Source: a virus. From it: DNA of 20,423 bases. The stretch is from the IMG/VR virus record IMGVR_UViG_3300002180_000037, positions 14,015-34,437 of that record, one strand, 5' to 3'. Below the pieces are notes generated by a model. It searched no databases, had not been told where the DNA came from, and saw only the letters and a list, made by a program, of their open reading frames with translations. Both the position numbers and the translations under genes were made by a program. Of the stretch, positions 3,401-19,623 are shown piece by piece (position 1 is the stretch's first letter; each line of letters begins with the position of its first letter).

Positions 3401-6400
3401 TAATGCAGAAGTTAGATTAGAGTTATTCACCTTGGAGATTGAACAAGCTGAACGTATGAATACTCTTAAGACTTCCCAAGGGTTGGCGTTACAGCAACTT
3501 CAGCAGGAATATGATCTTAGATCCTCTATTAGAGGCGTTGAGTCTGATAGGTTCATTATGTTGGCTGAAATGCGTGAGCAGGACACTGCCGCTATGCAGG
3601 CTAAGATACAGCTGAAAACTTTTGAAGAAGAGGCAGATATTAAGAAGCTAGAGCAGCAGGCTAAGATAAACCAAGCTCTAGAGGTCACCGCAGCTTTAGA
3701 GGCTAAAATAGCTCTGTTAAGAGGCCGCGCACCTGCTGAAGTTCAGGAAGCTTTGGCCGCAGCTCAAGCCCAGTTATCCTTAGAGAGAGCAGCCCTTGAG
3801 AACCTAGAGAAGACTTCTAGCGTTACTAAGGACTTGCTAAAGTTTAAGGGAGAATTAGCTACTATTGATGCACCTTTCAAGGATATAGGAAGTGCACTAG
3901 AGGGGCTAGATGATGGGCCTTTCAAGAAGTGGATTGACGGATCGAACCAGTTCGCTAAAGTAACTGCTAAGAATAACAAAGTCCTTTCTAAACTGAAGGA
4001 AGATGAAAACTCTACTGACGCAGACATTCAGAAGCAGCGTTTAAAAGGCTTCGGAGACCAAGCTTCGGCGATGGTAAGTATGTTTGAGGAAGGTAGTTCA
4101 GCAGCTAAGGCAGCACACGCTATAGAGCAAGCCATACACATAGCTAGGTTAGCTATGGAAGTACAGGCAGCAACTGCTCATATAGCCTCCGTAGCTTCGG
4201 CAGCGGCAGCAGACCAAGCGACCATACCCGGTAAGATAGCTTCTGGCTTCGGCGCAATTGTATCTGAAGGCGGTATTCCCGGCTTGGCGATAGGTGCAGG
4301 GTTTATTGCGATGATGGCCTCCTTAATGGGTGGTTCTGGCGGTAGTTCAGCAGGCGGGGACGGCGGACAGGCTTTAGTTAAGAAGCAGTTAGCTAACCAC
4401 GAAGCTAATCTAGGCGAAAACGGCATTACTAATGTAATGGACTTAGAAACAAACGCACTAGTAGAGAGTATAAATGACCTAGTAGAGATTGACACTAGAT
4501 TGTTCTCATCTATGTACGACTTGCAAGGTTCTATTGTAGAGCTTGGTAAGAGTTTCAAGTCAGTAGGTAGTTCAGCTAAGCAGGCGTTCGGTGGATTAAC
4601 TGACCGAGGCGTTGCCGCTCAGTTTGATAACTTGCCTGAGATTGGTCCTGACCTAGCTATAGGTAGCCCTAAACGCCGTGCAGAAAGAACAATAGAAGAT
4701 GTACTATTACAGCCTAACTTAGAACTTCAGGGTAGTCAGATTAACCCTGCTAATATAACTAAGGCTAGTGATTATATCAAGAACAGTTTTGACAATCTTA
4801 CTGCTCTAGTAATCACTAAGTTAACTATTAGTAAGACTTCTACAGGAGCCATCAAGTCAGCCAGTATAGACGAGTTTACTCAGAATATTGCTGGAGAGCT
4901 ATCCGATGACTTATCTTCTGCATTCATTAACACTATAGATACTACATTTGATCTTATCATGGCCTTAGACCCTGGAGCACACTTCGGTAAAGCTTCTAAG
5001 TCTTTCCAGCAGGATCTAGTAGACAATATGATCTCTAGTTTCGAGTCAGGAACCTTATTTGAGGGGAACGTTGGAAACGCAGGGTTCGTAGACCAAAACG
5101 TACTAGCTAGCGACTTTAACACTAGCATATCCCTTGACGGGTTAAGCAGTAGTGAAGCAGCCGATCGTATATCTGGATACTTTAATAGCTTATCTGACTC
5201 AATGATTGAACAACTGTTCCGTCCTATTGATGACTTCAGAAGGGCTGGTGAAGAGATAGGCGACACATTAGCTAGGTTAGTAGAAGAAACTGCCGCAGCT
5301 GTTAATGCATTCGCCTACTTGGGTTTTGAAGGTTCGATGTTTGATCCCTCAGTAATGAACTCAGCAGGTGTACAAGCTAATCTGGCTTTCCAGAAGGGTT
5401 TGTTTGAAGGGTTTGAAGACGCAGGTGTATGGGCTTCCTTAGCGGAAGAGTTTACCTCTGTAATTCTTACAGAAGCTGAGGCGTTAGAAAACAAAGTATC
5501 AGTACTAGGTACTGATGTGGGTGCAGGACTTGAGCGTTCTATATCACAGGCGTTGGATGTTACCAATATATCGGGAGCTGCCTTGCTTGGGAATGAACTG
5601 CAAACCTTGTCTATGGATCTAGAGTCAGGGGCTATAACCTCTAAGCAAGCACTATTAGGGTTCCGCACCGTTTGGGATCAATACTCTAAGGTACTTGGCG
5701 CAGCGGGCGAAGGCGTTGACTTATCTGGCAACCTTATCACTCCAGACACTTTGGAGCAGTTAGGTTCGTTAGATTCTACACTAATGGGAACAGTAGCAGC
5801 CTTAGGGCAGTTACTTGATGCTGAGGAAGACTTAGCCACAGCGGTAGCTGATGAAACAGGCGCAGCGTTACTTGACTTCTTGGAGGTTATCAATAACATC
5901 CGGAATACTGTAGCAAACATGCTTCTTGGGGACTTATCTCCACTAGCACCTGGACAGAAGCTAGAACTTGCTAAAGGTACCTTTGATGGTATGATCTCTG
6001 CGCTACAAACAGAGACTGATCCTGAGAAGCAGCTTGAGTTATTATCTGGACTAGAAACAGCAGGTCTTGATTACTTGAACCTTAGTAAGGACTTCTACGG
6101 CGGAGTTGGTGTTTACATTGATGAGTTTGAGCGAGTTAAATCAATACTAGAGCAGACTGCAGAGTCATTTGCAGATCAGTACGGTGTAGATATTGACCAA
6201 CAGACACTCGATGTATTAGAAGCCACCTACGATCTAGAAGCTAGGGCAGCACAGGCTAATGAGGACGGCTTACTTGCCATACTTAATGCCATAAGCCCTG
6301 AAGACGCTTCCGCTATTGAAGCTATCTACCAAGACCAGTTAGGTCGTGCATCTGATGAAGCCGGAATGGCTTTCTACACGGATCAGCTAGTTAACCAAGG

Positions 6401-6968
6401 TCAGAGCTTAGCCTCTATCGACGAAGCGATTAATGCTTCCGCAGAAGGTGTAGCATATGACGCTAGTACTGGAAGTTCTGCTGACGCAGCACTAAGTGGT
6501 ACTAACGGTAGTATCGAGCAGCTTTACCAAGAAGAACTGGGACGGGCGGCAGATGCTGGCGGGTTAGTCTTCTACGCAGATCAAGTAGACAGCGGCGTTA
6601 GTAGCTTAGACAGTGTTAGGGCGCAGTTGAACGGCTCTGAAGAAGGTATAGCGTATGATGCTCTGGGACTGGATATGTTTGCCGAAGGCGGTATTACTAG
6701 CGGCGTTAGCTTAGCTGGTGAGGCAGGCCCTGAAGCGGTTGTTCCTTTACCTGATGGACGGTCTATACCAGTAGACATGGGCGGTAACTTTAACACTGCT
6801 GAGTTACAGAGGCAGTTAGCAGAGTTATCCTTGAAAGTAGAAGAGCAGACAGCGGCTAACTTAGCGGCTCAAGCTCAGTTAGCACAGTTACTAGAAGAGA
6901 GCAATGATATTGCTACTAGTAGTCTTAGTACTAACAAGAAAGCTGCAAGACAGGAGGTTCTTGTATGA
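459..6968 (+). CDS. Tail tape measure protein, 2169 residues, with C-terminal DUF4214-like repeats
   Basis: This protein sets tail length and is thought to be ejected ahead of the DNA. The start is supported by TAAGGA six bases upstream. The N-terminal ~290 residues match the pattern of large tape measures, with a stretch around residues 190-230 including EPEILDELGIFVKI. Hydrophobic segments lie near residues 316-330, 446-469 and 1264-1297 (the last Gly-rich), fitting a membrane-inserting role during ejection. Roughly residues 540-1250 are Lys/Glu/Gln/Ala-rich and look helical and coiled. Two DUF4214-like repeats occupy about 1952-2000 and 2019-2066 (YQDQLGRASDEAG and YQEELGRAADAGG). The motif FAEGGI at 2074 leads into GEAGPEAVVPLPDGRSIPV, common near tape measure C-termini, and a Gln/Leu coiled-coil tail ends the protein. 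No peptidase or lysozyme motif was seen. The stop overlaps the next gene's start (ATGA). Confidence 0.95.
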   Translation: MAKDEKRKVVIEITDKGLKKVTDGISKLSASLDKLEKPINPTKFTQGAGKALGKTTEGVKSYTTSISEADRAAKSFSNTSSRGAKDFAKQSQGLGGLVHVYATVAANIWAVGAAFDQLKQSADLKGVIKAQESLAAQTGRSLTSMSAALKEGTNNTITLATAMKLASQAAAAGFDTKFTKDLAKVALGASKAFGRDITDSVERLTKGIAKMEPEILDELGIFVKIEQATRKYADANNLAQSELSELQRRQAFSNEAMRQGLEVFERIGKEAANNPYSKVASQMVDLKDSVLSMVTGFIDATGVIGVFTESAGALKAGMFLLVRGLVKQAIPALSDWHNSLSTKIVEKHTANLAQFEKATIRSSLSTRALTGTMTSFNTSLSAVASGARLAGTSMQVAFSAGMVGGIEAQAVMAGVNSQLRTMSPLLVAASASMQLFGKAAGGIRALGGLVFKLAGWISMATIAFQLFAKPLEKLASALGILEPLVSVFDRIGAATGLYNPKGIEDLTKATKGYSEELRKPLEGFKELSTAATEAFIEPTRLTKLLANNLVNLGSGLTATIDAFEKVPERNLQYTLEKFQDVKKEILDGAKALKQTKLQKRLEDLLNVDPKDFAKIPAILKEAQAAIEAQAVVAQTAQGKTEGYAKAIEDLERETTKYLKSFEGNTQLDKVSSAFNSSSLVEFKTELEGLEELINTGEFSLEVTANAGRVEKLQATILSSQKALKAIEGTRSRGRGEAAGGADAGITSQQRYRVTRDLNAAIDRTRKEIDTIVTNAVVTLPSDIISSEALRNVQGDIAKIGEKTLRTIGLSVTEAKRLLELAKTPTEGLDSLSNNLDQLREFSSLTDKTREGLERLTGSMEKQRNIALANKDLQASTYESQLKYEAELRTLKASGKAGEVGDTEVRVAAKALELGRERVLLENKIATIRNKNAALQAKIDGLGSRDAAPKAIKDAIDLQNKSIATNERSIAVLTKQKVALQDNAEVRLELFTLEIEQAERMNTLKTSQGLALQQLQQEYDLRSSIRGVESDRFIMLAEMREQDTAAMQAKIQLKTFEEEADIKKLEQQAKINQALEVTAALEAKIALLRGRAPAEVQEALAAAQAQLSLERAALENLEKTSSVTKDLLKFKGELATIDAPFKDIGSALEGLDDGPFKKWIDGSNQFAKVTAKNNKVLSKLKEDENSTDADIQKQRLKGFGDQASAMVSMFEEGSSAAKAAHAIEQAIHIARLAMEVQAATAHIASVASAAAADQATIPGKIASGFGAIVSEGGIPGLAIGAGFIAMMASLMGGSGGSSAGGDGGQALVKKQLANHEANLGENGITNVMDLETNALVESINDLVEIDTRLFSSMYDLQGSIVELGKSFKSVGSSAKQAFGGLTDRGVAAQFDNLPEIGPDLAIGSPKRRAERTIEDVLLQPNLELQGSQINPANITKASDYIKNSFDNLTALVITKLTISKTSTGAIKSASIDEFTQNIAGELSDDLSSAFINTIDTTFDLIMALDPGAHFGKASKSFQQDLVDNMISSFESGTLFEGNVGNAGFVDQNVLASDFNTSISLDGLSSSEAADRISGYFNSLSDSMIEQLFRPIDDFRRAGEEIGDTLARLVEETAAAVNAFAYLGFEGSMFDPSVMNSAGVQANLAFQKGLFEGFEDAGVWASLAEEFTSVILTEAEALENKVSVLGTDVGAGLERSISQALDVTNISGAALLGNELQTLSMDLESGAITSKQALLGFRTVWDQYSKVLGAAGEGVDLSGNLITPDTLEQLGSLDSTLMGTVAALGQLLDAEEDLATAVADETGAALLDFLEVINNIRNTVANMLLGDLSPLAPGQKLELAKGTFDGMISALQTETDPEKQLELLSGLETAGLDYLNLSKDFYGGVGVYIDEFERVKSILEQTAESFADQYGVDIDQQTLDVLEATYDLEARAAQANEDGLLAILNAISPEDASAIEAIYQDQLGRASDEAGMAFYTDQLVNQGQSLASIDEAINASAEGVAYDASTGSSADAALSGTNGSIEQLYQEELGRAADAGGLVFYADQVDSGVSSLDSVRAQLNGSEEGIAYDALGLDMFAEGGITSGVSLAGEAGPEAVVPLPDGRSIPVDMGGNFNTAELQRQLAELSLKVEEQTAANLAAQAQLAQLLEESNDIATSSLSTNKKAARQEVLV
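6312..6656 (+). repeat. Two DUF4214-like repeats within the tape measure gene
   Basis: Two units of about 48 residues, separated by an 18-residue Ser/Gly/Ala linker, share the pattern YQ..LGRA.D..G..FY.DQ..........I...(I/L)N.S.EG.AYDA. The match to DUF4214 (L-G-R-x-x-D-x-x-G) is by eye. The DNA copies have drifted in synonymous positions, so the duplication is not recent. Confidence 0.7.
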
Positions 6969-9217
6969 CACAACAGGTGTCTCTAGTTGAGATAAGCTCT
7001 TTAAACCTGGGTAGTAATACAGCAGAGATGCTGTATTACTCAAACACCAGTTATATAACCACACCAACAGATACTCCAGCAAACACTGCCTACCTCCCAA
7101 GGGTAGACAGTGCCTTGGAGATTTCACGAGATATATTTAAGGGACTACAGGGCGGTAGAATCGCATCCGCAGGGATCGGTAGTATTGTCCTGTCCAACCC
7201 TGATGGAGCGTTAGATAGTATTTACTCCACTAATCTACTAATTGGTAGAAGTATTACTATTAAGGCTGGGGATATTGACGGCGGTCACGTAAATCTGACC
7301 ACTATCCTAGTCGGCGTTATTAGGGACGTAGATTACTCCCAAAGTAACGTGACACTTCAGGTTCAAGATAGAAACGCAGTGTTTGACACTGAGATTTCCA
7401 CTACCCTCTATACTCCTGTAACAGGTAGCGGAGAAGTAACTTTTAACACTTCCTTACATGATAGCCCCTTGCCTATTTGCTATGGGGATGTTAGGAACGT
7501 AACCCCTATACATGTAGGGGCCGTATTATCAGGAGACCTTTATACCAGTACCTTTGATGCGTACTATATAGGGGATTCGATGAGCCTGTCTGAGGATAAG
7601 CTCACAGCTACTAATGATGACGTAGGTACTTGGGGAACCGCATACGCCGCTGCGGGCGTAGGTTCAGGCAAGTCCTACTTAGAGTTTGACGTAACGCACA
7701 CAACAGAAGGGTACGTAGGCATTACTACTTCGGTAGGTAGGCCACGTACTACATTTTTAGGTAATACTACAGGCAGTTATGGGTATAGAGCTTCGGATGG
7801 GTACTTAGTAAACAATGGTACTCCTGCGGCTTTCCACGCTAGCTTCCTAGGTGCTGCCACAATCGGAATAGCTATAGACGCAGACGCTGGTAAGGTCTGG
7901 TTCGCACGTAATAATGTGTGGAGCGGAAATCCTTCTACGGGGGTCGGTGCGGCCATTTCAGGACTTACGGGTGTAATTACTCCAGGGGTTTCAAGTAACG
8001 ATCCTACGGATTCTGTGCTTGCGGTATTCAATACAGGCGACCATACGTATTCGCCACCTTCTGGCTTTAATGCTGGTACGTCTAATCCTATAGCGGTTAA
8101 CGAACTGATCTACCAAGTGCATGATGGAGCTATCGAAGATATAGTTGCAGTTTACGCAGGAGGTAGTTTGGTTGATCCTGGAAACTATACTAAGCTATTG
8201 AGCGAGGGGAAATTCCAGCTTGACATAGGCTCCGCTAGCGGGTATACTATTACTGCAGACGTTAAGGGAAGTACGGCACCTGCCACTTATAATAAGGTGG
8301 GGGATATTATTAAGGACTTAATAACTAACCGTATAAGCCCTTCTATCTCGTACAACTCCTCTTCTTTCGATGATTTAGAGGATGCTTACTTTAGTACAGT
8401 AAGTATAGTTGATACCGCTCGTTGTGGGTTCTACCTACCTAAGGGCGGGAGCGTTAAACAAGTACTTACCCTGTTCAATAGGTCTTTTGGCATGTATACC
8501 GGCTTCGATAGATCAGGTGTATTCGATATAGGTATATTTAAAGGGCCTGACTCAGGCGCCTCTGCGCTAGATCTGGCAGAGGAGAATGTATCTGAAGTGG
8601 TACGTTTACCTGTTAAGGTACCTACATATGAACACTCTGTGGAATACGCCCATAACTATACGGTATTGGGAGACTCCTCGCTAGCTAGTGTAGTCATAGA
8701 GCAATATCCTGACCACCATGCATTCCTTGGGGAGGCCAATCGAGTCGCCACGGCGGATGAGTATGAGTTAGGGATACGACTAGCCGATGATGTAGTAGAG
8801 GCTATCCCGGTAGGTTCTGAGGGCCTGTATCAAAGCTTGAAAGATCGCTACCCTACCAGCGTACCTAGTGATGCATCGTCTTCTGTCATCTACTCAGGAG
8901 TAGACGCTTACTTAGAAGCTAAGAGGCGTTGGAGACTTTATAATAGTGGTGGAACCTTGAGACAGGCATCCTACATACGAGTTACATTAGCTACTAAGTC
9001 TGAAATAGAGATAAACGATACTGTAAAGCTGACCTACCCTAGACTAGGGTTGGATAGCGGAAGCTACTATACAGTAGTAGCGGTATCTGAAGACGTTAGA
9101 TTAGACGAGATGGAGCTAGACCTGTGGGCAGGTTCTGAGGATTCTTTCACTGACGGCGATGATGTTAATGTAGCAACAATAACTGCTGATTACGTACAAT
9201 ACGAAGGAATCCTGTAG
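6965..9217 (+). CDS. Tail-tip hub-like protein with inserted SPRY-like domain (paralogue 1)
   Basis: The start ATG overlaps the tape measure stop (ATGA) and has AGGAGG at 6952-6957, so translation is probably coupled. The N-terminal ~190 residues (TPTDTPANTAY at about 36-46, then GIGSIVLSNPDGALD) and the C-terminal ~350 residues, ending in a beta-rich NDTVKLTYPRLGLDSG segment, follow a layout I know from phage tail-tip or hub-like proteins encoded after the tape measure. Between them, about residues 205-365, is a SPRY-like sandwich with a telltale WFARNNVWSGNP from W312. A likely role is a tail-tip component with the SPRY domain displayed for binding. It is a clear paralogue of the next gene. 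No signal peptide, transmembrane segment or enzyme motif is visible. The hub assignment is inferred from position and general pattern; the SPRY-like call is firmer. Confidence 0.78.
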   Translation: MTQQVSLVEISSLNLGSNTAEMLYYSNTSYITTPTDTPANTAYLPRVDSALEISRDIFKGLQGGRIASAGIGSIVLSNPDGALDSIYSTNLLIGRSITIKAGDIDGGHVNLTTILVGVIRDVDYSQSNVTLQVQDRNAVFDTEISTTLYTPVTGSGEVTFNTSLHDSPLPICYGDVRNVTPIHVGAVLSGDLYTSTFDAYYIGDSMSLSEDKLTATNDDVGTWGTAYAAAGVGSGKSYLEFDVTHTTEGYVGITTSVGRPRTTFLGNTTGSYGYRASDGYLVNNGTPAAFHASFLGAATIGIAIDADAGKVWFARNNVWSGNPSTGVGAAISGLTGVITPGVSSNDPTDSVLAVFNTGDHTYSPPSGFNAGTSNPIAVNELIYQVHDGAIEDIVAVYAGGSLVDPGNYTKLLSEGKFQLDIGSASGYTITADVKGSTAPATYNKVGDIIKDLITNRISPSISYNSSSFDDLEDAYFSTVSIVDTARCGFYLPKGGSVKQVLTLFNRSFGMYTGFDRSGVFDIGIFKGPDSGASALDLAEENVSEVVRLPVKVPTYEHSVEYAHNYTVLGDSSLASVVIEQYPDHHAFLGEANRVATADEYELGIRLADDVVEAIPVGSEGLYQSLKDRYPTSVPSDASSSVIYSGVDAYLEAKRRWRLYNSGGTLRQASYIRVTLATKSEIEINDTVKLTYPRLGLDSGSYYTVVAVSEDVRLDEMELDLWAGSEDSFTDGDDVNVATITADYVQYEGIL

Positions 9218-9242
9218 GGTTCTATACTAACGGAGGAACTTC

Positions 9243-11603
9243 ATGGCAATAATAGATGTACCAACTGTGAGACAGATTGCACTACTAGAGCTTAAAGCTC
9301 TAGATGTCTCCTCCAATGCAGAAGTTACCCTATACTTCTCTAACTCTAGTTATGTTACTACACCAACTGATACCCCCGCCAACACAGCTTATATAGCTAG
9401 GTTGAGTGGGGCTCCTTCCTTAGACAGGAAGATGTACTCCTCTAACAACATAGGCGGTCTGGTTTCTCAAGGTATAGGCAATATTAGCCTATACAATGGG
9501 GACGGCGGTTTAGACTACATATATGATGATTACTTGATACTTGGTAGAGAGTTTACCTATAGTATCATATCGTTAGGAGACACACACGAAAACAAGCGAC
9601 TGATATTCAGCGGAGTGGTTAATAATGCACGCTTCGGTGAACAGTCCTTAGAATTAGTACTATCCGGTAAAGAGGTTCTGTTAGATCAACCTCTCTCCCC
9701 TACCAAATACTGCGCCGTCGGAGGCGTGGGCCAGGTGACCTTTAACAGCTCACTACATGGCAGAAACTTACCCGTGTCCTACGGGGTAGTTAAGAACGTA
9801 ACCCCTACCTACATAGCCAGATCGTTAGCTGGACTACTAAAGTACTCTGAGTTTGATGGAGCTAGCACAAGTTCTAGCGTTACCATAAGCGGAGGTGGCT
9901 TAGTTGCTACTCATTCAGGTGATTCAGATAGTTGGGCTACTATATACGCGACCATAGGCGCTGGCGACGACTTGCAATACTTTGAAATAGATACAGCTTT
10001 CAGCTCTAATGGGGCTGTTGGTGTATCAGAAGCAGGTCCGAGGGTTTTTGACGAAGCTATAGGAGATGCAGACGAGGCTTACGGTTTCGAAGCTGCCACT
10101 GGCAACCTCATCTCATATGGCTCTAGCGCGCCTTATTCATCTGCTTATATAGGCGGCACCCGGATAGGGGTAGCTGTCGACCTAGTTGAAGGTAAGCTCT
10201 GGTTTTCTAGGAATGGCATATGGGACGGAAATCCTAGTGCTGGTACTGATCCTGCTGCCTCTGGTCTTAAAGCTCCGCTGTACGTAGCGGTATCTTTATA
10301 TGATGTGGGAGACTCAGTTACTGCGGTGTTTGACCCAGATGGTACTGTGTATCCTACACCTTCCGGATTTAACACCAATACTACCTTACAGACTTCTGTA
10401 ATGGATAAGACTTACCAAGTACACAAGTCTACTATATACAATATTATCTGTGTACATTCTAACGGCGCTGACTTGGCTGAGTCGGAGTACTATACAGAGT
10501 TTGAGAAAGGTACTTTTACCGTAACGGCGGCCTCGGCACAGAGTATTACGGCAGACGTACACGGTGATATAGTTCCAGCTATACCTGAGGGCGCTACTGA
10601 TATAATGAAAGAGCTAGTTATTGGGCAACTAACGCCACCTCAGGAGATAGATGGGGTCAGCTTTAACAATCTACTAACACCGTACTTCGCAGGTGTTAGC
10701 ATTCTTACTAGAGCTACTACTGGATACTACAATCAAACAGGTCAATCTGTTGGAGGCGCTCTTAAGGAGCTACTTAACTCCTTTGGACTATTCGGCGGAT
10801 TTAATCGGAAAGGTGTATTCGACATAGGGCTTTTCAAAGGACAGACCGAGTCTTCCTCCGTGGCTTCGCTAACAGATGTTAGTATCATAGAAGCTTCTAG
10901 GCAGAAGACCTCAATACCTAAGTACAGGAGATCGCTGGGATACGCTAGGAACTATACTCCTATGACTCCCTCTGCCATCGCCCCTACCGTGTTACTATAT
11001 AACCCCGATCAGTATGCCTTCCTGCTAGCACCTTGGAGAGTAGTCACAGCGGATACCTTAGAGCTAGGTATCCGTAAAGTTGACTCAGTAGTAGAGGCTA
11101 TACCTGAAGGAGGGGAGGATGACTACCACACTATTCAAGACAGGTACCCTACTGCCGAAGAAGGTAATCAATTGCCGAGCAATATATTCTCAGGAGTAGA
11201 CGCACTACTGGAGAACAAGAGGCGGTGGAGGCTTTATAATAGTGCTGGAACGCTACTACAGCCAAGTAGGTTAAGTATGGTAGTTAAAGCACTAGCTGGC
11301 TCCTTAGAGCTGAACGACACCTTAATGATAAAATACCCAAGGTTTGGGCTGGATACGGAGGTTCCGTACTGTATTATTGGAATATCAGAGGACACCTTAA
11401 ACAACATAGTAACCTTAGATCTTTGGTCTGGCTCAGAAAGCTCTATAGGCGCTGGTACCGATGTTGATGTCGCTGCTATTGAGGCCTCCTTCGTACAATA
11501 CGATGGCTGCTCACCTATTATAATCGCTATAGAAAGTGACCTACATCCCTACGGACTACCTAGCAACCCCTATGGTATGGGTACTAGGCCTTTTGGATCG
11601 TAA
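9243..11603 (+). CDS. Tail-tip hub-like protein with inserted SPRY-like domain (paralogue 2)
   Basis: The start is set by CGGAGGAA ten to eleven bases upstream, in a 25-base gap after paralogue 1. The protein aligns with its neighbour end to end: TPTDTPANTAY near the N-terminus, GVGQVTFNSSLHGR...LPVSYG before the insert, the SPRY-like signature WFSRNGIWDGNP from W320, and ending in NDTLMIKYPRFGLD, DLWSGSESS and FVQYDG. Conserved blocks such as VFDIG(I/L)FKG, RYPT and KRRWRLYNS are shared; the copies otherwise differ widely, so both have probably been kept for distinct roles. It has an extra 29-residue tail rich in Pro, Gly and Tyr (YGLPSNPYGMGTRPFGS), which may dock the next protein. This gene closes the first block: a promoter follows it. 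Confidence 0.78.
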   Translation: MAIIDVPTVRQIALLELKALDVSSNAEVTLYFSNSSYVTTPTDTPANTAYIARLSGAPSLDRKMYSSNNIGGLVSQGIGNISLYNGDGGLDYIYDDYLILGREFTYSIISLGDTHENKRLIFSGVVNNARFGEQSLELVLSGKEVLLDQPLSPTKYCAVGGVGQVTFNSSLHGRNLPVSYGVVKNVTPTYIARSLAGLLKYSEFDGASTSSSVTISGGGLVATHSGDSDSWATIYATIGAGDDLQYFEIDTAFSSNGAVGVSEAGPRVFDEAIGDADEAYGFEAATGNLISYGSSAPYSSAYIGGTRIGVAVDLVEGKLWFSRNGIWDGNPSAGTDPAASGLKAPLYVAVSLYDVGDSVTAVFDPDGTVYPTPSGFNTNTTLQTSVMDKTYQVHKSTIYNIICVHSNGADLAESEYYTEFEKGTFTVTAASAQSITADVHGDIVPAIPEGATDIMKELVIGQLTPPQEIDGVSFNNLLTPYFAGVSILTRATTGYYNQTGQSVGGALKELLNSFGLFGGFNRKGVFDIGLFKGQTESSSVASLTDVSIIEASRQKTSIPKYRRSLGYARNYTPMTPSAIAPTVLLYNPDQYAFLLAPWRVVTADTLELGIRKVDSVVEAIPEGGEDDYHTIQDRYPTAEEGNQLPSNIFSGVDALLENKRRWRLYNSAGTLLQPSRLSMVVKALAGSLELNDTLMIKYPRFGLDTEVPYCIIGISEDTLNNIVTLDLWSGSESSIGAGTDVDVAAIEASFVQYDGCSPIIIAIESDLHPYGLPSNPYGMGTRPFGS

Positions 11604-11715
11604 GCCTTGCATGTATTTGGTAGTAACTTTTCAGTTGACAGATTCATGAATTTGTGTATAATTGAGAAGTTACCTCCCAGGTATCTTAACTAACTAATTA
11701 GGAGCAGGTACGTAC
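11604..11715 (+). other. Intergenic leader with promoter and possible RBS-masking structure
   Basis: This 112-base non-coding gap holds promoter 1. After the predicted start of transcription (about 11669) comes TACCT-CCC-AGGTA (11671-11683), a small hairpin. Its ACCTCC core is also complementary to the ribosome site region GGAGCAGGTA (11701-11710). The leader could fold in two ways, one hiding the ribosome site. No ORF longer than 12 codons and no convincing terminator for the upstream gene were found. Confidence 0.45.
11635..11662 (+). promoter_or_regulatory. Consensus sigma70 promoter driving the adhesin operon
   Basis: TTGACA at 11635-11640 and TATAAT at 11657-11662 are both exact consensus hexamers, with a 16-base spacer. 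It lies in the gap before the gene at 11716, in the right orientation. Start of transcription is expected near 11669, giving a leader of roughly 47 bases. No extended -10 (TGn) is present. An exact match at both boxes in intergenic DNA is very unlikely by chance. Confidence 0.88.
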
Positions 11716-12594
11716 ATGTCAGATAACGCACCAAGCCATTTAGTTATAGCATACATAGACCGACTACTAGACTCTGCTACTACGGTGACAGGGTTTAGTT
11801 GGGACGGTCTAAATCCTGTAGCTAACTTAACAACTAATAAATTCTCACAAACAGCCAACGCTATAGCCAATAACTCAGCCGTAGCGGTGGACTTTGGTTC
11901 CAGTAAATCAATTGAAGTACTGGCCCTGCCTAGACATACTTTGTCTACTAACGGTACTTGGCGAGTTCGAGTATCTACCGACGTAACCTTACTAACCGAC
12001 CCAGCTTCTGTAGACCTTGGAGACATAGTGTATGACTCGGGGGTAGTCAATGTGTGGCCCTCTCTCGACAGCTATACCACCGTACCTTATGAAGAGTACA
12101 GTATTTGGGCAGCCGAGCTTGTCAATGTACATAATCCCCCTGGAGTCTTGTGGCTACCTAGAGGTACCGAAGCTCAGTACATGTACGTGGACTTCAGCGA
12201 CCCTGACGCAGATGATTACACAATAGGTAAGTTATTCGCCGGCCCTTATTGGCAGCCCGAGAACGGAGTCAGTAGAGGGTGGAGTACCCAGTACATAAGT
12301 CCTACTAAACCTAAGAGGTTAGAAGGTGGACTAGTAACTACCGAACCTAGTAATAGGTATCGAAGAATAGAATATGACTGTAAGTTTATACCTGAAGACG
12401 ACGTCTTCACAGAGGCTGCTATTATTGATAGGGAGTACGCGTTAAACGTACCTTTTGTATCTATCATAGACCCTTCTGATAGTAAGAACGCACATCGTGT
12501 GTTTATTTACGGAACTAACAGTAAGATACACGCTTCAATAAATACTTCTTACGGGTACTACTCTAAGAAGTTCACGATAGATGAGTGGCTATAG
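11716..12594 (+). CDS. Virion structural protein, possibly galactose-binding-like (paralogue of 12606 C-terminal part)
   Basis: First gene after promoter 1. Ribosome site: TAGGAG ending 11 bases before ATG, or AGGTA five bases before it. The 292-residue protein follows a pattern I associate with phage tail proteins of probable beta-sandwich fold: AVDFGSSKSIEVLALPRHTL (about 56-75), TWRVRVSTDVTLLTDP, YDSG, then YMYVDFSDPDADDYTIGKLF and a (G/S)P.WQ motif, RGW, and a C-terminus TIDEWL. The next gene repeats nearly all of these in order. The likely role is as a tail-tip or fibre-base component, possibly carbohydrate-binding; that is inference from fold-like pattern only. No signal peptide or enzyme motif is visible. 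Confidence 0.72.
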   Translation: MSDNAPSHLVIAYIDRLLDSATTVTGFSWDGLNPVANLTTNKFSQTANAIANNSAVAVDFGSSKSIEVLALPRHTLSTNGTWRVRVSTDVTLLTDPASVDLGDIVYDSGVVNVWPSLDSYTTVPYEEYSIWAAELVNVHNPPGVLWLPRGTEAQYMYVDFSDPDADDYTIGKLFAGPYWQPENGVSRGWSTQYISPTKPKRLEGGLVTTEPSNRYRRIEYDCKFIPEDDVFTEAAIIDREYALNVPFVSIIDPSDSKNAHRVFIYGTNSKIHASINTSYGYYSKKFTIDEWL

Positions 12595-12605
12595 GAGGCT
12601 AACCA

Positions 12606-14000
12606 ATGCCAGCATTAACCGGCCTAGGGGCCACTACGAATATAACCTCGCTAAGTCCTGGTAGGGGCTTAGCCCTAACCGGCTTAGAGTCTGTAGTAGT
12701 AGCTCAGTATTTACCTACTATTCTACAAGGTGTAGAAACTCCTATAATTTTAGAGGGGTTAGGCTACTACAAAGGAGAGCTATTCTCCGGAGTAGCCAGT
12801 ACCAGCGCTTTAGGTAGTTTAGGTACTACTAAGTCTGGATCGTTGGCATTATCTGGCGTATCTGAAGACTTTGCTCTTGGTGTAATAGACCTACCTAATC
12901 TACAAGTACAGGCTCCTGTAACCCCCAAGCCGCAACCTTTGTTGGCTTATATTGATTATACTACTCTAACATCTACCACCATACAAGGCGTAGGTTCTTG
13001 GGCCGCCTCGCTACCTTTAGAAAATGCACTAAATACAAGCATGGGAGAAGCAGCTAGAGTACTAAGTACAACAGCGACCATGAGCATTGACATCGCTTCG
13101 TCACATTCTCTAGATGTTGTAGCTATACCAAAACACAACCTAACGGATCAGGCTACTTGGCGGGTAAGGATGAGCAATGACGCTACACTCCTAACAGACC
13201 CAGATAACGTAGCTCCTTTAGATTTAGTGTACGATAACGGTTCCGGTACCTCGACGGTATCTACCACACTAATAAACGTTTTAAGCCCACCAGCGACCAT
13301 AGACGTAGAGGCAGATGTAGGATTCGCACCGGGTGGCCTAATAAAGATACACAATGCTACCAATAACTATATATTGGGTACTGTTGATAGTTACGCTGCT
13401 GGCGTACTAACGTTTACTAAGACGTCTGGGTCAACCGATCCATACGCATCAGGAACTTGGACTGTTACTTTAATCGACGATAGTCCTAGAATGTTCTCAA
13501 CTGACACCGTATTTTCCGCAGGAGCTGCAGTAATACCTCCTGCATTGTTGATCTTGCCAGCTACCGTTAAGGCTAGATACTTGCACGTAACTATCGAAGA
13601 CCCTACTAATGCTTTAGGGTACTTGGATATATACAAAGTACTAGCATCTCCTGCGTGGCAAAGTAGTCACGACATAGATCGTGGTTGGAAGATTACTAAC
13701 ATAGATAAGAGTAAGAAGACCTTATCGCACGGAGCACAGCTCTATATAGACTCAAGACCGATGTACCGCAAGTTTGAGATTAGGTACACTCACATGGATA
13801 AGACCGAGATTATGTCAAACCTTCTAGAACTAGATAGATTGATAGGTACCGAGGCTCCTGTGTTGTTATGTCTGGAACCCTTAAATGCGGCTAGGTTAGC
13901 GGATAAGTCTATATACGGGACTAAAACAGCTTTACCTAAGTTCGCGGAGAGATTCGCGGGATTAATGGGAACATCAATATCTATAGAGGAGTGGATTTAG
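12606..14000 (+). CDS. Virion structural protein: repeat N-terminus plus paralogue of 11716 with inserted beta-domain
   Basis: AGGAGG (12593-12598) overlaps the upstream TAG stop and sits seven bases from ATG. Three parts are visible. Residues 1-115 are Gly/Leu/Thr/Ser-rich with degenerate repeats of the type ALTG(L/V)...L...G, starting MPALT as in the gene at 18952. From about residue 116 the protein aligns with 11716: AYIDYTTLTSTT, IDIASSHSLDVVAIPKHNL, TWRVRMSNDATLLTDPDN, YLHVTIEDP, a PAWQ motif, RGW and a final SIEEWI. At about 226-300 an insert absent from 11716 (VGFAPGGLIKIHNATNNYI then TGTVDSY-like turn and WTVTL) looks like a small beta-domain recurrent in phage fibres. Probably a second, larger variant of the same tail part. 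Function is inferred. Confidence 0.72.
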   Translation: MPALTGLGATTNITSLSPGRGLALTGLESVVVAQYLPTILQGVETPIILEGLGYYKGELFSGVASTSALGSLGTTKSGSLALSGVSEDFALGVIDLPNLQVQAPVTPKPQPLLAYIDYTTLTSTTIQGVGSWAASLPLENALNTSMGEAARVLSTTATMSIDIASSHSLDVVAIPKHNLTDQATWRVRMSNDATLLTDPDNVAPLDLVYDNGSGTSTVSTTLINVLSPPATIDVEADVGFAPGGLIKIHNATNNYILGTVDSYAAGVLTFTKTSGSTDPYASGTWTVTLIDDSPRMFSTDTVFSAGAAVIPPALLILPATVKARYLHVTIEDPTNALGYLDIYKVLASPAWQSSHDIDRGWKITNIDKSKKTLSHGAQLYIDSRPMYRKFEIRYTHMDKTEIMSNLLELDRLIGTEAPVLLCLEPLNAARLADKSIYGTKTALPKFAERFAGLMGTSISIEEWI

Positions 14001-14001
14001 T

Positions 14002-14370
14002 ATGTCAGCAAATGTTTATGATTTCGTACGAGAGACCTCTACTACAGTAGGTACAGGAGCGACCATATCCCTTACGGCAATCACTGGATTCAGTAGATTT
14101 GCAGATGTGGCTGTAGTAGGTACGAAAGTCTACTACAGTATCCTAAGTGGAAATGATAGAGAGGTGGGTATTGGTACTATACAGGCTTCCAATACCTTCT
14201 CTAGAGACACCCCCTTAACAACGTTAGTCGGAGGCGTATACAATAAGAACCCTCTGACACCTATAAGCATGAACGGAGACTCAGAGGTGGCCATAACCCC
14301 TCTAGCTCAAACACTGACAACCATAGAAGAAGAAGTAGCTGCAAGAATCCTACTTCTTATAGGAACCTAG
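14002..14370 (+). CDS. Small phage tail/fibre accessory protein (paralogue of C-terminal domain of 18952)
   Basis: GAGGAG (13986-13991) lies ten bases before ATG and the gap to the upstream gene is one base. The 122-residue protein is beta-rich, with YDFVRETSTTVGTGATISL at the start, then VYYSI...GN.RE.G.GT and a repeated segment around TPLTTLVGGVYNKNP. The C-terminus has TPLAQTLTTIEEEVAARILLLIGT, where the last part looks helical. The same domain, with PLTTLENGVY and APMAQTF, forms residues 101-223 of the gene at 18952. Proteins with this pattern are commonly encoded near phage tail fibres, and I suggest a connector or fibre head role. No biochemical function is known to me. Confidence 0.66.
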   Translation: MSANVYDFVRETSTTVGTGATISLTAITGFSRFADVAVVGTKVYYSILSGNDREVGIGTIQASNTFSRDTPLTTLVGGVYNKNPLTPISMNGDSEVAITPLAQTLTTIEEEVAARILLLIGT

Positions 14371-14373
14371 CAA

Positions 14374-14700
14374 ATGGCAATAGAATACAAAGTACTTGGA
14401 CAATCTGCACCTACTGCTGGTATACTGACAGACGTATATACCGTACCAGTCGATACGTCTGCTATTATATCTACTATATCTATCGCAAGTATCGGTGCTG
14501 CTGATACTGTGCGCGTTGCTGTACGTCCAGGAGGTGCCGGTATTTTAAATCAGCACTATATAGTATATGATGTAGCGATGGAATCAGGTGAAGCAACCTA
14601 CCTTACTATGGGCATAACATTGGGCTCAGGCGACGTTATAAGTGTTTACAGCTTAGACGCTCTTACGTCTTTTGGAATCTTCGGCTCAGAGATAGTATAA
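14374..14700 (+). CDS. Small conserved phage virion-associated protein
   Basis: ATAGGAA lies nine bases upstream of ATG. The 108-residue protein is predicted almost entirely beta. It matches a pattern I recognise from many phages as a small protein encoded beside tail fibres: YKVLGQSAPTAG, LTDVYTVP, then AVRPGGAGI.NQHYI.YD, and a LGSGDVISVYS..., ending FGSEI. No function is established that I can name; a small beta-sandwich decoration or fibre-linked protein is the likeliest. Its TAA stop overlaps the next ATG (TAATG), so the following LRR fibre is probably translationally coupled to it; that gene has only a weak ribosome site of its own. Confidence 0.66.
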   Translation: MAIEYKVLGQSAPTAGILTDVYTVPVDTSAIISTISIASIGAADTVRVAVRPGGAGILNQHYIVYDVAMESGEATYLTMGITLGSGDVISVYSLDALTSFGIFGSEIV

Positions 14701-16574
14701 TGTCTAGTCTTAAGTTTAGTCAGCTAGGCTTAGCTAGCAAAACTATAGGACTCAATAAACCTTTAGGTGTAGAGACATCTTTTGATGGAGTACTAACTCC
14801 TATGCCCTCTACAGCCAATACTGACTACTTACTGGGTCGCATAAAAATCGGTCCGTATAGAACATTACTAGCAATAGATGTCACTACTAACGCAGGTCCA
14901 AACGCTGTTAGTAATGGTTATTACGTAAGTTGGGGCGACGGTAGCCCGCCAGAATTATTTGCTAGCGGGACTGTTGCAGAGCACGAATACATAGGCAGTG
15001 AGGGATATTCCTACAACACTAAAGGCACTAAATATGCCTACGGGTTTGTAGAGGTATATCCGGCAGGTGACGACACTTTAGATACTATCGACTTAAGTAA
15101 GTATTATAATGATGTCACCGCTAACTCTGACTATAACCCTCCCGCCTATAGTTCTGCTTGGTTGCAGTTAGAGGTGGTTTCTAACAGCCTAACTGCTTTT
15201 ACAGTAGGGCCTATAAGTTCTGGTTTCGCCAATGGCTACGCCTCTGCGGAGTTAGGCTCTGTCGGTATGTATCGGATGGGGTACTGGGAAGGTATCTATA
15301 CAGGAGACCCAAACACTACAACTCCTGAGATACCGCATAGAAACTTAGCAGAGGTATACTTTAGATGCCCTAATGTTGTAGACGGGTCTTATATGTTTCA
15401 GTGTTGTACTGCTTTGCGCAAGTTAGATATTGACACTAGCAACATGGAAATAATGCATTTAATGTTTGCTAACTGTATAGTACTAAGGGATGCATCCAGT
15501 GTTACCTTCGAATCTTGTGTAGACGCTTCAGGAGTTTTTCAGGCCTGTAGTATTTTAACAGTATTGCCGTCACTCTATATGCCAAAAGTAGCTTACTTAG
15601 ATAGGGCATTCGCAGGGTGTGACTTATTGGTAGATTTCTCCCTTACCTTAACAGGGGCTTGCATAGACGTGTCTTATATGTTTGCCTTCTGCAACATACT
15701 ACGTTCCGTAGTCATAAAAGGTCCCAGTGTTAGAGGTCCGGCAGATCATATGTTCGAAGATTGCCTATACCTCACCAGGGTAGCTATAACTAATGTTAGT
15801 AGTATAACTAGCGCAGAGTACTTATTCCAAGGGTGCGATTATTTACGCAATATACCTGATTGGAATTTTATAAGTTGCAAGAGTATATATAGGTGCTTTT
15901 ATCAAATGAAGCGGCTCTCTGTAGCCCCTAAATGGATACTACCCGCCTGCACAGACTATAGAGAATGTTTTTCAGAAACTGCTATAATAGAGGGCCCTAA
16001 CTGGGATATGCCTTCTGGGGAGCGCTTTTACAGGATGTTTAGGAACTGTAAGTGGTTAGAAAGGTGCAGCCTATACTTTCCTTCCGACGATTATAGGGAG
16101 TATGTTGGCGTTTTTGAGGGCTGCCACTGGTTAGAAGATCTAGCCGTAGATACTCCTATAGGTCTACCTCATGGCAATTACTTCTTAAATGGTTGTCACT
16201 CTATTGAATTCTTGCCACCAGTTACCTATAGAAACACTACAGGAGTAACTAATGTCTATGCTGACTCATTCAACTTAATGAATTCTTTAGTAGAGTACCC
16301 TGGGTTCATAGGCCTTGATACAGACTTGTCTCAGTTCACTACCAGCCCTTACAGTAACGTAGGTCCTAAGGTATCGAAGTTACTAGCGCCTATCTGTGAG
16401 AAGTCTTTCACAGTGGATTCATGTGTTATGACTTCGGTAGGGTTAAATGAACTATATGAGAGCCTGCCTGTAGTAACTAGTAAAACTATCACGATAACTA
16501 ATGTAGACGATGATGAAGTAGCTGCGTCCGACACTACCATAGCCACCGATAAAGGTTGGACAGTCAATTCCTAG
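14700..16574 (+). CDS. Tail fibre/adhesin with BspA-type (DUF285) leucine-rich repeats
   Basis: 624 residues, starting by TAATG coupling to the upstream gene. The N-terminus KFSQLGLASKTIG matches that of the next fibre. A SWGDGSP motif at 77-83 followed by SGTVAEHEY is typical of PKD-like beta-domains found before BspA-type repeats. From M232 to about 520 there are 12 copies of a repeat with the pattern (M/V/L/A/C)F..C..L, at residues 232, 255, 279, 303, 327, 351, 375, 399, 423, 446, 471 and 495, so 23-25 residues apart. The C-terminus has TIATDKGWTV, the usual end of this family. Such solenoids are adhesive surfaces, so this is the strongest receptor-binding candidate. Most repeat units hold a Cys at the fixed position (the units at 399 and 423 lack it). 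No signal peptide is visible. Confidence 0.85.
   Translation: MSSLKFSQLGLASKTIGLNKPLGVETSFDGVLTPMPSTANTDYLLGRIKIGPYRTLLAIDVTTNAGPNAVSNGYYVSWGDGSPPELFASGTVAEHEYIGSEGYSYNTKGTKYAYGFVEVYPAGDDTLDTIDLSKYYNDVTANSDYNPPAYSSAWLQLEVVSNSLTAFTVGPISSGFANGYASAELGSVGMYRMGYWEGIYTGDPNTTTPEIPHRNLAEVYFRCPNVVDGSYMFQCCTALRKLDIDTSNMEIMHLMFANCIVLRDASSVTFESCVDASGVFQACSILTVLPSLYMPKVAYLDRAFAGCDLLVDFSLTLTGACIDVSYMFAFCNILRSVVIKGPSVRGPADHMFEDCLYLTRVAITNVSSITSAEYLFQGCDYLRNIPDWNFISCKSIYRCFYQMKRLSVAPKWILPACTDYRECFSETAIIEGPNWDMPSGERFYRMFRNCKWLERCSLYFPSDDYREYVGVFEGCHWLEDLAVDTPIGLPHGNYFLNGCHSIEFLPPVTYRNTTGVTNVYADSFNLMNSLVEYPGFIGLDTDLSQFTTSPYSNVGPKVSKLLAPICEKSFTVDSCVMTSVGLNELYESLPVVTSKTITITNVDDDEVAASDTTIATDKGWTVNS
15393..16259 (+). 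repeat. Twelve ~24-residue leucine-rich repeats in the fibre gene
   Basis: Units of 23-25 codons carry MF.xC.xL-type cores (MFQCC, MFANC, VFQAC, AFAGC, MFAFC, MFEDC, LFQGC, CFYQM, CFSET, MFRNC, VFEGC, FLNGC). Spacing is so regular that a solenoid fold is near certain. DNA copies are diverged, so copy number is unlikely to change by simple slippage. Confidence 0.85.
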
Positions 16575-16578
16575 GAGG
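16573..16578 (+). promoter_or_regulatory. Ribosome binding site deciding a TTG start
   Basis: AGGAGG lies five bases before TTG at 16584 and overlaps the TAG stop of the upstream fibre (16572-16574). The full consensus site and the N-terminal match to the other fibre (FxQxGLxxxxIG) favour the TTG start. Confidence 0.8.
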
Positions 16579-16583
16579 TTCTT

Positions 16584-18941
16584 TTGAGCATAGGTACGTT
16601 TAAACAAAGAGGTCTAGGGCTTAGATCAATAGGTGCTGGAGGCCTTGCCAATAACGAAAGAAATAAACCAAAAGGTTGGGATATACCTATCTGGAAAAGG
16701 CCTAGGTGGTGGAGGGACTTTGAGGAGTACACAGATACTGACGATGTATGTGAGCAATTTGTGCGAGTACCTCCATCAGGAACGATGCACAGGGTAAAGG
16801 CATGGGGTAGCTCCGGCTCGTATAAGGTAGACTGGGGGGATGGCTCTCCAGTAGAGACCTTTTCGTCTAATACTATTGCAGAGCATTCGTACAGTTATGA
16901 GGATGTTCCAGCTAATATTGGATCTACAGTCTCCTACATTGCAGAGAGTAACTTAGTTACTTTGACAGAGCACGGATACCAGGATGGGGATTATGTAAGT
17001 ATGTTTAATCCTTCAGGAACCTATGAGGTAGAGCACGGAAGAACTTATATAGTTAAAAATTCCAGTGAGAATTCTTTCCAGATATCTAAGACTTCAAGAG
17101 GAGAGGTCTTATCTTTCTCTTCCGACGGGTCAGGAGACCTAGCAGGCTACCGATTAGCTAGTGCTAAAGTTATGTCTCCGGACGCTTCCATACGCTTAAC
17201 AACTGTAGATCTAGGAGTTATAAATAATACTACTAAGCAGCCGAATGCTATCGCTGCCCATATGAATACCCCTAATATATCTGCGTTTACTACTACTACA
17301 TCTTACACGTCCTTTAGGGTACCTCTAAAGTACTTGAGCGGGTCAAACTGTAGCTCATTAAGTAATTTCAGGTATATGTTCTCGCTCCACCTATTAAAAA
17401 ATATAGAGGAGTTGGACATGTCCAACGCCACTAGCATATCTAATATTAATGTAGTTAGTAACTCTACGGGATTGCGCGGATGGTCGGATAACTTTACTAA
17501 GGCAGTGGAGCGATGTACTACTTTAGATAAGTTAACCTTTAAGAGTTTATATATCCCACCTCTCAATTTCTCTAGTTCAGTTCTTTTAAATAATACGTTG
17601 GTAAATTCCATATGTATGGATATAACTATAAACTATCTTAATGCTTCTACCGGCCCTAACTTACCTGACGGCTTACTTAGCTTATACCTGAACCATGTAT
17701 ACGGAACCAGCCCCGTATCTACACTGGTAGATAGTCAGCCTACTATGTTAACTGACTCTTATGAGGATATAAGGATAAACCCTGTGAGGGCAGAAAAACC
17801 CGTAAGGGTTCCACAAGTTCAGTACGCTGAGGAGATGGTACTGCCTGAAATATATGACAAGCCCGACCTTAATAGTTTCGGACAGGATCAACCTAAGCTA
17901 AAAACACTACCTGCAGGGCTTAAACCGGGCGCAGTATTTGCGGATTTTAATAATCTATTCCAATTTTGTCATAATTTAGACGTAGTAGACGCTACAGACT
18001 TAACAGCAGGAATCTACCATACTGGAATAGTCTATGATGCTTATGACTACTATTGGAGAAACGATGGGTGGCTACAGTTGCTATTTAATGACTGCAATGG
18101 ACTAAGAAGCCTAGCTGTTACCGAGGAACCCGCCCGCCTAGGTTTAGCTACCAAAGACTGTAGGGCATTAGTAGAGTTGGATATTATAGTACCTAAAAAT
18201 TACGCTTTGTTTTCCCCACTACTCCCTTTCGTAGATTGCCGTCTTCTTAGCTATATAGGTAATAATAGTATCCGAGATATAGACGGAAACTTCCCTAGCA
18301 ACAAGGCGTACTACTACAGTACCACTGCGATAGTGCCTATGTTCGCCGGATGTTTTAATCTACAGACTATAGAAGATTTAGACTGCAGGGAGTTTAGAGA
18401 CGGGTATAACTATGGTATAAGTATTCAGAAGAACTACTCCTTGGAGAAGATAGATATAAAAGGAGTACAGAACTACTTTAAGGCAACTAGGTGCAACCTA
18501 GGCAAGGAAGCCGTAGAGTTAGTATTTAGGAATCTTTACCCAGTATCTGGAGATTACGACGTTAGACTAAATAGTGGGCCAACTGGGCATACAAACTCAG
18601 TATCGACCATGGGCGAGTTAGGCACTTTGGGTATTATAAATACCGGAAGTAAGTCAGTAAGCTTGTCCGGAATCTCTTTAACTACCGAAATAGGTACTAT
18701 AAAAGCAGGTACTGCAGGGGTTGTTTCATTAACCAACGTAAGTGCACAAGGATCCTTAGGGCAGCTAGTAGCGAGCGGAGACTCCGTACAGCTTACCGGG
18801 GTCTCAACTACAGGGGCCGTAAATGACTTTGTAACATTACCCGGAGGAACAGTCTACTTAAAAGCCAACCCAGGTCTGTACTTAGCAGACTGGTCTATTG
18901 CAACGGCTAAAGGTTGGACAATTAACACAACTACCGATTAA
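16584..18941 (+). CDS. Second LRR-type tail fibre with inserted beta-domain and C-terminal short repeats
   Basis: 785 residues from a TTG start. The N-terminus TFKQRGLGLRSIG parallels the previous fibre. A PKD-like WGDGSP at 84-89 with SNTIAEHSY follows. Residues ~114-196 hold an insert (NLVTLTEHGYQDGDYV ... NSFQISKTSRGE) resembling a small beta-domain common in phage fibres; it splits the PKD-like part from the repeats. Degenerate LRR signatures occur at MF near 265, LFQFC near 458, LLFNDC near 499 and MFAGC at 586, far less regular than in the neighbour. Residues ~676-752 are three or so short repeats (SVSLSGIS..., VVSLTNVS..., SVQLTGVS...). The protein then ends in SIATAKGWTI like the neighbour. 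Likely a second adhesin with different specificity. The stop TAA lies inside the next gene's ribosome site (TAAGGAGG). Confidence 0.78.
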   Translation: MSIGTFKQRGLGLRSIGAGGLANNERNKPKGWDIPIWKRPRWWRDFEEYTDTDDVCEQFVRVPPSGTMHRVKAWGSSGSYKVDWGDGSPVETFSSNTIAEHSYSYEDVPANIGSTVSYIAESNLVTLTEHGYQDGDYVSMFNPSGTYEVEHGRTYIVKNSSENSFQISKTSRGEVLSFSSDGSGDLAGYRLASAKVMSPDASIRLTTVDLGVINNTTKQPNAIAAHMNTPNISAFTTTTSYTSFRVPLKYLSGSNCSSLSNFRYMFSLHLLKNIEELDMSNATSISNINVVSNSTGLRGWSDNFTKAVERCTTLDKLTFKSLYIPPLNFSSSVLLNNTLVNSICMDITINYLNASTGPNLPDGLLSLYLNHVYGTSPVSTLVDSQPTMLTDSYEDIRINPVRAEKPVRVPQVQYAEEMVLPEIYDKPDLNSFGQDQPKLKTLPAGLKPGAVFADFNNLFQFCHNLDVVDATDLTAGIYHTGIVYDAYDYYWRNDGWLQLLFNDCNGLRSLAVTEEPARLGLATKDCRALVELDIIVPKNYALFSPLLPFVDCRLLSYIGNNSIRDIDGNFPSNKAYYYSTTAIVPMFAGCFNLQTIEDLDCREFRDGYNYGISIQKNYSLEKIDIKGVQNYFKATRCNLGKEAVELVFRNLYPVSGDYDVRLNSGPTGHTNSVSTMGELGTLGIINTGSKSVSLSGISLTTEIGTIKAGTAGVVSLTNVSAQGSLGQLVASGDSVQLTGVSTTGAVNDFVTLPGGTVYLKANPGLYLADWSIATAKGWTINTTTD
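18609..18840 (+). repeat. Short 'S(V)xLxGVS' repeats near the fibre C-terminus
   Basis: Units of about 20-24 residues with the core (S/V)V(S/Q)L(S/T)(G/N)(I/V)S followed by ~G.(L/I)...G. The same type of unit forms the N-termini of the proteins at 12606 and 18952. In phages the pattern recurs in beta-repeat fibres and linkers. Alignment is by eye and the unit edges are uncertain. Confidence 0.55.
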
Positions 18942-18946
18942 GGAGG
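18940..18946 (+). promoter_or_regulatory. Ribosome binding site deciding the start at 18952
   Basis: AAGGAGG lies five bases before ATG at 18952. An upstream in-frame ATG at 18898 lies inside the preceding gene and would add 18 residues with no ribosome site. The MPALT start also matches that of the gene at 12606. Both favour 18952. Confidence 0.85.
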
Positions 18947-18951
18947 CGACC

Positions 18952-19623
18952 ATGCCAGCTTTAACTTCTGTACTATCTACTACATCGGTAGGTAGTATGG
19001 CAGCGGCTTTACATACACAACCACTAACCTCCAGTACTATAGTAGGTACTCTAGGTTATACAGGTTTGTTAACAAACGTACTAGGTACTTCAGCTACTGG
19101 TACAATGACTGCGGCGTTTTCTGTACCACTAACTTCCGTACTAACTACTATGAACAGAGGACTACTAACTGCTGTAAAGGCAAGTAGTAGGGTTTCCAAT
19201 CTTGTAGGTGTATTTGCATCAGGCCAGCAGGGTGTCATTGGAAGGCTACCTCTAGATAGAAAGGAAATCTATAGCCTGATTCTACAGGAGTCTAGTACTT
19301 CAGGAGACGCAGAGACCATACGGTTAGATCAGGTTGGGAACTTCGGAGTGTTCGGGGATGTAATATCCGTAGGAGCGACTGTCCATTACTCTATTGAGAA
19401 TGGGAATAACAAAGAGACCGGCTATGGTACTTATACTCAGAATCGCCTGTTGAGAACGCGACCCCTTACTACATTAGAGAATGGGGTATACGACAGCAGC
19501 TCACCTAATAGGATTACGCTATCTGGCATAAGTAGTGTCAGTATTGCTCCTATGGCGCAAACGTTCACCAATTTAGAGGAGGACGCGAAGCTCAGGGTGT
19601 TGATGCTCATGGGGTCTAGTTAA
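18952..19623 (+). CDS. Repeat-plus-head virion protein (C-terminal paralogue of 14002)
   Basis: 223 residues. Residues 1-100 are Leu/Thr/Ser/Gly-rich degenerate repeats (ALTSVLSTTSVGSM, PLTSSTIVGTLG, NVLGTSATGTM, PLTSVLTTMNRGLL, NLVGVFASGQQGVI), of the same type as the N-terminus of 12606 and the C-terminal repeats of 16584. Residues 101-223 align with the whole of the 14002 protein, sharing HYSI/YYSI, GT, R.(R/T)PLTTL..GVY and AP(M/L)AQT with a final helical LEEDAKLRVLMLMG. So this is a fusion of a repeat stalk with the small head domain. It probably serves as another connector or fibre part. It is the last gene of the operon: a new promoter begins 11 bases after its stop. Confidence 0.68.
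   Translation: MPALTSVLSTTSVGSMAAALHTQPLTSSTIVGTLGYTGLLTNVLGTSATGTMTAAFSVPLTSVLTTMNRGLLTAVKASSRVSNLVGVFASGQQGVIGRLPLDRKEIYSLILQESSTSGDAETIRLDQVGNFGVFGDVISVGATVHYSIENGNNKETGYGTYTQNRLLRTRPLTTLENGVYDSSSPNRITLSGISSVSIAPMAQTFTNLEEDAKLRVLMLMGSS

Follow-up and report, generated by a model that had tools for sequence, protein, structure and literature searches.

Downstream of its tape measure gene, an uncultured siphophage carries four pairs of homologous tail-tip genes, one of which consists of two complete predicted baseplate hub genes. We propose that these genes were probably duplicated individually, for the most part as tandem copies. The window, the whole 20,423-nucleotide stretch analysed, covers bases 14015-34437 of a virus record 34,437 bases long. 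Genes upstream of the window's genes encode the terminase, portal, protease-capsid fusion, head-tail connectors and major tail protein; a single 641-codon frame (L006:7858-9783) joins the head maturation protease and the major capsid protein. The gene order up to the tape measure (459-6968, phrog_3779) is the ordinary siphophage order, and our finding concerns the genes 3′ of it. All features described between 6965 and 19623 lie on the + strand.

Four gene pairs in the tail-tip region

When the profiles of 11 proteins from the window were compared all against all, 4 of the 55 possible pairs stood out (E 2e-101, 3.7e-21, 3.5e-18, and 2.2e-6), and the remaining 51 comparisons gave E values of 0.02 or worse. 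The four are exactly the pairs that an earlier note on this DNA had claimed by eye and proposed to compare in this way: the proteins starting at 6965 and 9243, at 11716 and 12606, at 14002 and 18952 (C-terminal half), and at 14700 and 16584. All four are thus homologous above background. As a possible fifth pair, the 11716 and 16584 proteins gave a blastp E of 0.002 but an hhalign E of 0.21, and we took this match as chance.

Of the 10 ORFs between 6965 and 20418, 8 belong to a pair, which is what the note's 'nearly every' module amounts to; two ORFs have no partner. One is a small tail-fibre-like protein (14374..14700; phrog_693 tail fiber protein, 1.4e-6) that finds no partner in the all-against-all comparison, and the other is a protein at 19960-20418 (phrog_644, 1.9e-13) that follows a 336-base gap. 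The same note had described the pairs as not being in simple tandem order. This is true of the dispersed 14002/18952 pair, but the members of the other three are direct neighbours, with intergenic distances of 25, 11, and 9 bases within the hub, galactose-binding-like and leucine-rich repeat (LRR) fibre pairs. An extra block in one copy of each later pair was observed as described, and it is always the second copy (12606, 16584, and 18952) that carries it; the extra material of the second hub (9243) is just a C-terminal tail of ~30 residues. Similarity at the DNA level is faint (73% over 73 bases and 81% over 48 bases, each ~2.3 kb apart), and the duplication is therefore old.

Two intact hubs with a SPRY insert

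Hub copy A (6965..9217, 750 aa, phrog_8917) directly adjoins the tape measure gene, its start overlapping the end of that gene by 4 bases. An AlphaFold2 model built on a 13-sequence alignment (mean pLDDT 66.6, higher in the core) matches T5 pb3 (7zqp_b) with Z 15.2 and an rmsd of 4.8 Å over 462 aligned residues, spanning model residues 1-729. It also matches the DT57C protein 8hqz_A (Foldseek E 5.6e-16) and many other hubs. The predicted fold of hub A is that of a T5 pb3/gp27-type baseplate hub. A PDB profile search with the hub alignment gave no significant sequence match, the best being to an antibody (E 0.43). Hub copy B (9243..11603, 786 aa) is a full-length paralogue with its own ribosome-binding site (GGAGG upstream), and its 41% identity to the modelled hub A over 749 aa (E 0.0) predicts the same hub type. 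It forms one open frame of 786 codons, with conservation even over all regions.

Each hub contains a SPRY domain, at residues ~191-378 of hub A (7535..8098; Pfam SPRY 30.5 bits, cut-off 26.3) and ~200-385 of hub B (9840..10397; 34.9 bits, same cut-off). The insert of hub A (residues 191-378) is SPRY by fold also, matching the RanBP10 IUS-SPRY with Z 11.9. The phrog_8917 match is interrupted at 267/269 in hub A and 269/271 in hub B, so that SPRY occupies one common site in the two hubs. This common site would make the SPRY insertion older than the hub duplication, unless recombination carried SPRY from one copy to the other. Identity between the hubs is 37% in the SPRY domain and 37-54% in the other regions, with no stops.

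In a tree of nine rows, hubs A and B are sisters (100/99) and group against all single-copy hubs. Contig L082 has the same tape-to-hub junction, and its tape-adjacent hub contains the start of a SPRY domain. The hub fragments of L082 and of a second contig, G778, both of which end within the hub, are 46% and 48% identical to hub A vs 34% and 38% to hub B; trees that include these fragments do not separate an earlier from a later branching of hub B relative to them. Hub B has changed more than hub A, with 66 to 24 changes against L082 (p 1e-5) and 34 to 15 against G778 (p 0.009). This difference is clear with these two contigs, but the two could be related to hub A only and would then not be outgroups. 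Against each of five distant outgroups, hub B again shows the larger number of changes (p < 0.05 in 2 of 5). In viral contigs, the search for close relatives of hub A returned SPRY matches only and that for hub B returned none; a single-protein scan of genome contigs with the L012 hub found no relative.

The galactose-binding-like, adaptor-like and fibre pairs

Galactose-binding-like copy A (11716..12594, 292 aa, phrog_8610 5e-29) is followed by copy B (12606..14000, 464 aa, phrog_8610 1.2e-33), which carries additional repeats at its N terminus and an insert in a loop (13251..13535, bounds approximate) placed by alignments and by split phrog_8610 matches near 70-90. The two proteins are 24% identical over 354 columns (E 2e-30) and are sisters at 88/92 in the tree. 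Identity is higher in the CBM-like domain (63/165, 38%) than in the C-terminal part (23/114, 20%), and seven outgroups show no consistent rate asymmetry between the copies. A model of the 11716 protein built on 12 sequences has a mean pLDDT of 49.5, reaching about 70-80 in parts of the CBM32-like domain. Its residues 14-178 match the CBM32 structure 4a42_A (Z 11.9, rmsd 2.7, 121 aligned), with Foldseek E values of 3e-4 to 9e-4 among the best 11 matches. The model thus gives residues 12-178 a CBM32/galactose-binding-like fold; this is a statement of fold. The structural matches also include non-sugar-binding proteins, and the domain is a putative sugar binder. A PDB profile search with the CBM-like alignment returned no significant sequence match.

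The dispersed pair consists of copy A (14002..14370, 122 aa) and copy B (18952..19623, 223 aa, with N-terminal repeats), whose C-terminal half is 42% identical to copy A over 118 aa. For copy B we used the ATG at 18952, which has AGGAGG upstream; the listed TTG start at 18898 would overlap the preceding gene. Relatives of copy A occur in 5 records, and those in a Vibrio phage and in an Alteromonas phage are tail proteins; we infer an adaptor role for both copies.

LRR fibre copy A (14700..16574, 624 aa), like copy B a candidate BspA-type LRR protein, matches Pfam LRR_5 with 40.8 bits (cut-off 27.7) and has 9 F..C..L signatures. Copy B (16584..18941, 785 aa) has 4 such signatures, an FCCH-like insert, and a repeat block before its C-terminal cap; its matches to LRR models and to E1_FCCH are all below the Pfam cut-off. 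Each signature count was reached in 0 of 2000 shuffles. The two fibres have an N-terminal anchor in common (31% over 113 residues, E 1e-7, with a core of 27 aa at 63%) and a C-terminal cap motif (E 0.019), and their middle parts do not align. This is the weakest of the four pairs, with only the anchor, the C-terminal motif, and the LRR class common to both, and it may have arisen by recombination of different tips onto a common anchor instead of by copying of the entire gene.

A ~20-residue repeat motif matches the 12606, 16584, and 18952 proteins 4, 6, and 5 times, respectively (0 of 2000 shuffles each), in agreement with the shared repeats seen earlier by eye; the pattern was written after inspecting these three sequences, so the counts and shuffles are descriptive. 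In galactose-binding-like copy B the repeats are N-terminal (12606..12920; 4 matches, 0 of 5000 segment shuffles), and in LRR fibre copy B they form a block at residues 666-765 (18591..18833; 4 matches, 2 of 5000 shuffles). We found no convincing alignment between the FCCH-like stretch of the 16584 protein and the loop insert of the 12606 protein.

Copy number in relatives

The search for relatives with one copy of each module, proposed in the earlier note, found single-copy relatives for the hub and the galactose-binding-like gene. With phrog_8917, each of the 13 other records with the family has one hub, vs two in the present phage; five further records, those with SPRY matches only, have none. 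With phrog_8610, 12 of the 13 other records have a single CBM-like gene, the exception being Caulobacter phage Sansa with two. Sansa gp39 and gp40 are encoded next to each other, share 42% identity and group as sisters (100/100), and the Sansa hub is single; this is an independent tandem duplication of the galactose-binding-like gene alone.

EBPR siphovirus 2, Sansa, Azospirillum phage Cd, Microcystis phage yong1, and Synechococcus phage MinM1 all encode the same two families, with the CBM-like gene directly 3′ of the hub gene in 4 of the 5 and an annotated tape measure directly 5′ of the hub in Sansa and yong1. In contrast to the two SPRY-bearing hubs of the present phage, each of these five has one hub with no SPRY, and Sansa is the only one of them with a second CBM-like gene; phage Cd encodes its CBM-like part within a larger protein. 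The EBPR siphovirus 2 hub (L013:5017-7776) has an N-terminal extension of ~400 residues with short GxFxLxG-type repeats recognised by eye, in which the ~20-residue motif of the window has no match.

Of 754 bacterial genomes searched, 31 contain the hub family: 29 of the 385 in one class and 2 of the 369 in a second. None of the 43 hub places in these 31 genomes holds a full-length side-by-side hub pair; the count of 43 was made by hand from 48 rows joined across insert and frame splits, and three places (G113, G134, and G322) are weak. The CBM-like family occupies 39 places in the same 31 genomes (46 rows, counted likewise), again with no side-by-side pair.

SPRY is missing from all seven single-copy hubs that we aligned. 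Four prophage hubs contain other inserts near profile position 260 with no Pfam match; the hub therefore tolerates loop inserts, and in this phage group the insert is SPRY. Prophage homologues of the CBM-like protein have larger inserts at a profile position similar to that of the 12606 loop insert. Large inserts occur in hubs and CBM-like proteins of the prophages L061-L066, near hub profile position 260 and CBM-like profile position 70-90; most of these inserts match no Pfam family.

Only 1 of 13 records with a related terminase holds this hub family, most of these records being short. However, two larger records whose terminase and capsid are related (G772 and G776; 98 kb and 42 kb) also have no match to the hub family, a pattern that suggests that tail modules are exchanged.

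Origin of the pairs

The tail-tip genes are arranged in a known order of tape measure, baseplate hub, galactose-binding-like protein, and fibres, and several of them would have been duplicated singly. The observed order, A A′ B B′ ... L L′, fits separate tandem gene duplications, whereas copying the adhesion block as a whole would need repeated rearrangement. Together with the single-copy relatives and the lone duplication in Sansa, the adjacency of the pairs makes separate tandem duplications the account with the fewest steps. The earlier description of a duplicated adhesion apparatus later reshuffled survives as duplication with later gain of domains; its other part, one block copied and then shuffled, accounts less well for three adjacent pairs. 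That all four pairs lie within one operon and that repeats are common to three second copies would suit a single block copy reshuffled afterwards, but identities vary widely from pair to pair and Sansa doubled its galactose-binding-like gene by itself, making such an event quite improbable.

The second copies could also be pseudo-paralogues acquired from other phages by recombination and not duplicated in this lineage. The strong divergence within pairs, the closer similarity of the L082 and G778 hubs to hub A than to hub B, and the mobility of tail modules indicated by the two larger records are consistent with such an origin. We nevertheless regard it as unlikely, as SPRY lies at one site in both hubs, hubs A and B group together in the nine-row tree, and GC and GC3 are similar between copies.

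Possible roles of the doubled hub and fibres

A single trimer of pb3 closes the tube of the T5 tail (PMC10038345). Two intact hubs therefore need explaining, be it by a mixed trimer, an extra ring, alternative assembly, or redundancy. Under separate duplication, hub A, next to the tape measure, would have kept the ancestral tube-closing role, and hub B, intact and somewhat faster changing, would join it in a mixed trimer or form a second ring, displaying a second SPRY domain. A mixed hub in the wider sense, with A/B heterotrimers, two stacked rings, or virions carrying A or B alternatively, could give two SPRY specificities from one genome; we put this forward tentatively, as a possible but doubtful arrangement. 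The single pb3 trimer of the T5 tip would accord with hub B being a relic or spare copy retained by chance and without a role of its own, yet at 41% identity hub B still has an open frame of full length, a ribosome-binding site, and even conservation, and we find a relic very hard to credit.

The LRR fibres, with the same anchor and different tips, could equip one tail with two adhesins, and the repeat blocks and loop domains of the second copies may be spacers or additional adhesion surfaces. For these fibres two receptor specificities, which the earlier note had raised, are plausible from the kept anchors and the middle parts that do not align. Faster divergence of the presumed binding domains, expected under two specificities, was not seen in the hub or CBM-like pair.

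If both hubs enter the virion, this phage would be an exception to one homotrimeric hub per siphophage tip, and the SPRY insert would offer a clean test of the hub's own part in receptor choice. If the mixed hub is true, the hub, and not the fibre alone, would serve receptor diversification. Two families listed as of unknown function also gain probable identities, phrog_8917 as hub and phrog_8610 as CBM32-like.

Comparison with known systems

Doubled fibres are already known; the doubled complete hub is the unusual feature. Neither the 13 other records nor the 43 places compared in bacterial genomes showed an intact doubled hub of the predicted tube-closing kind, and a search of the open-licence literature for doubled hubs or paralogous tail-tip genes turned up no clear earlier case of hub doubling. 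In jumbo phages, SPRY domains have been described as lectin-like components of the virion (PMC7824862). Evolved Dit and Tal proteins of siphophages (PMC7291167) likewise carry binding modules in loops of tail-tip core proteins; here, in contrast, the insert is SPRY, a putative sugar binder, it lies in the hub, and the core gene itself is doubled. In DT57C, the lateral fibres LtfA and LtfB, which differ in their receptor parts, are likewise encoded by neighbouring genes, and the second fibre is thought to attach via the first (PMC4728585), whereas here the LRR fibres have a common anchor and the hub is doubled too. Hub A resembles T5 pb3 and the gp27/gp44/VgrG hubs in its predicted fold and T5 pb3-type hubs in its gene position after the tape measure; unlike T5 pb3, the hub is present here in two full-length copies per phage, each with a SPRY insert.
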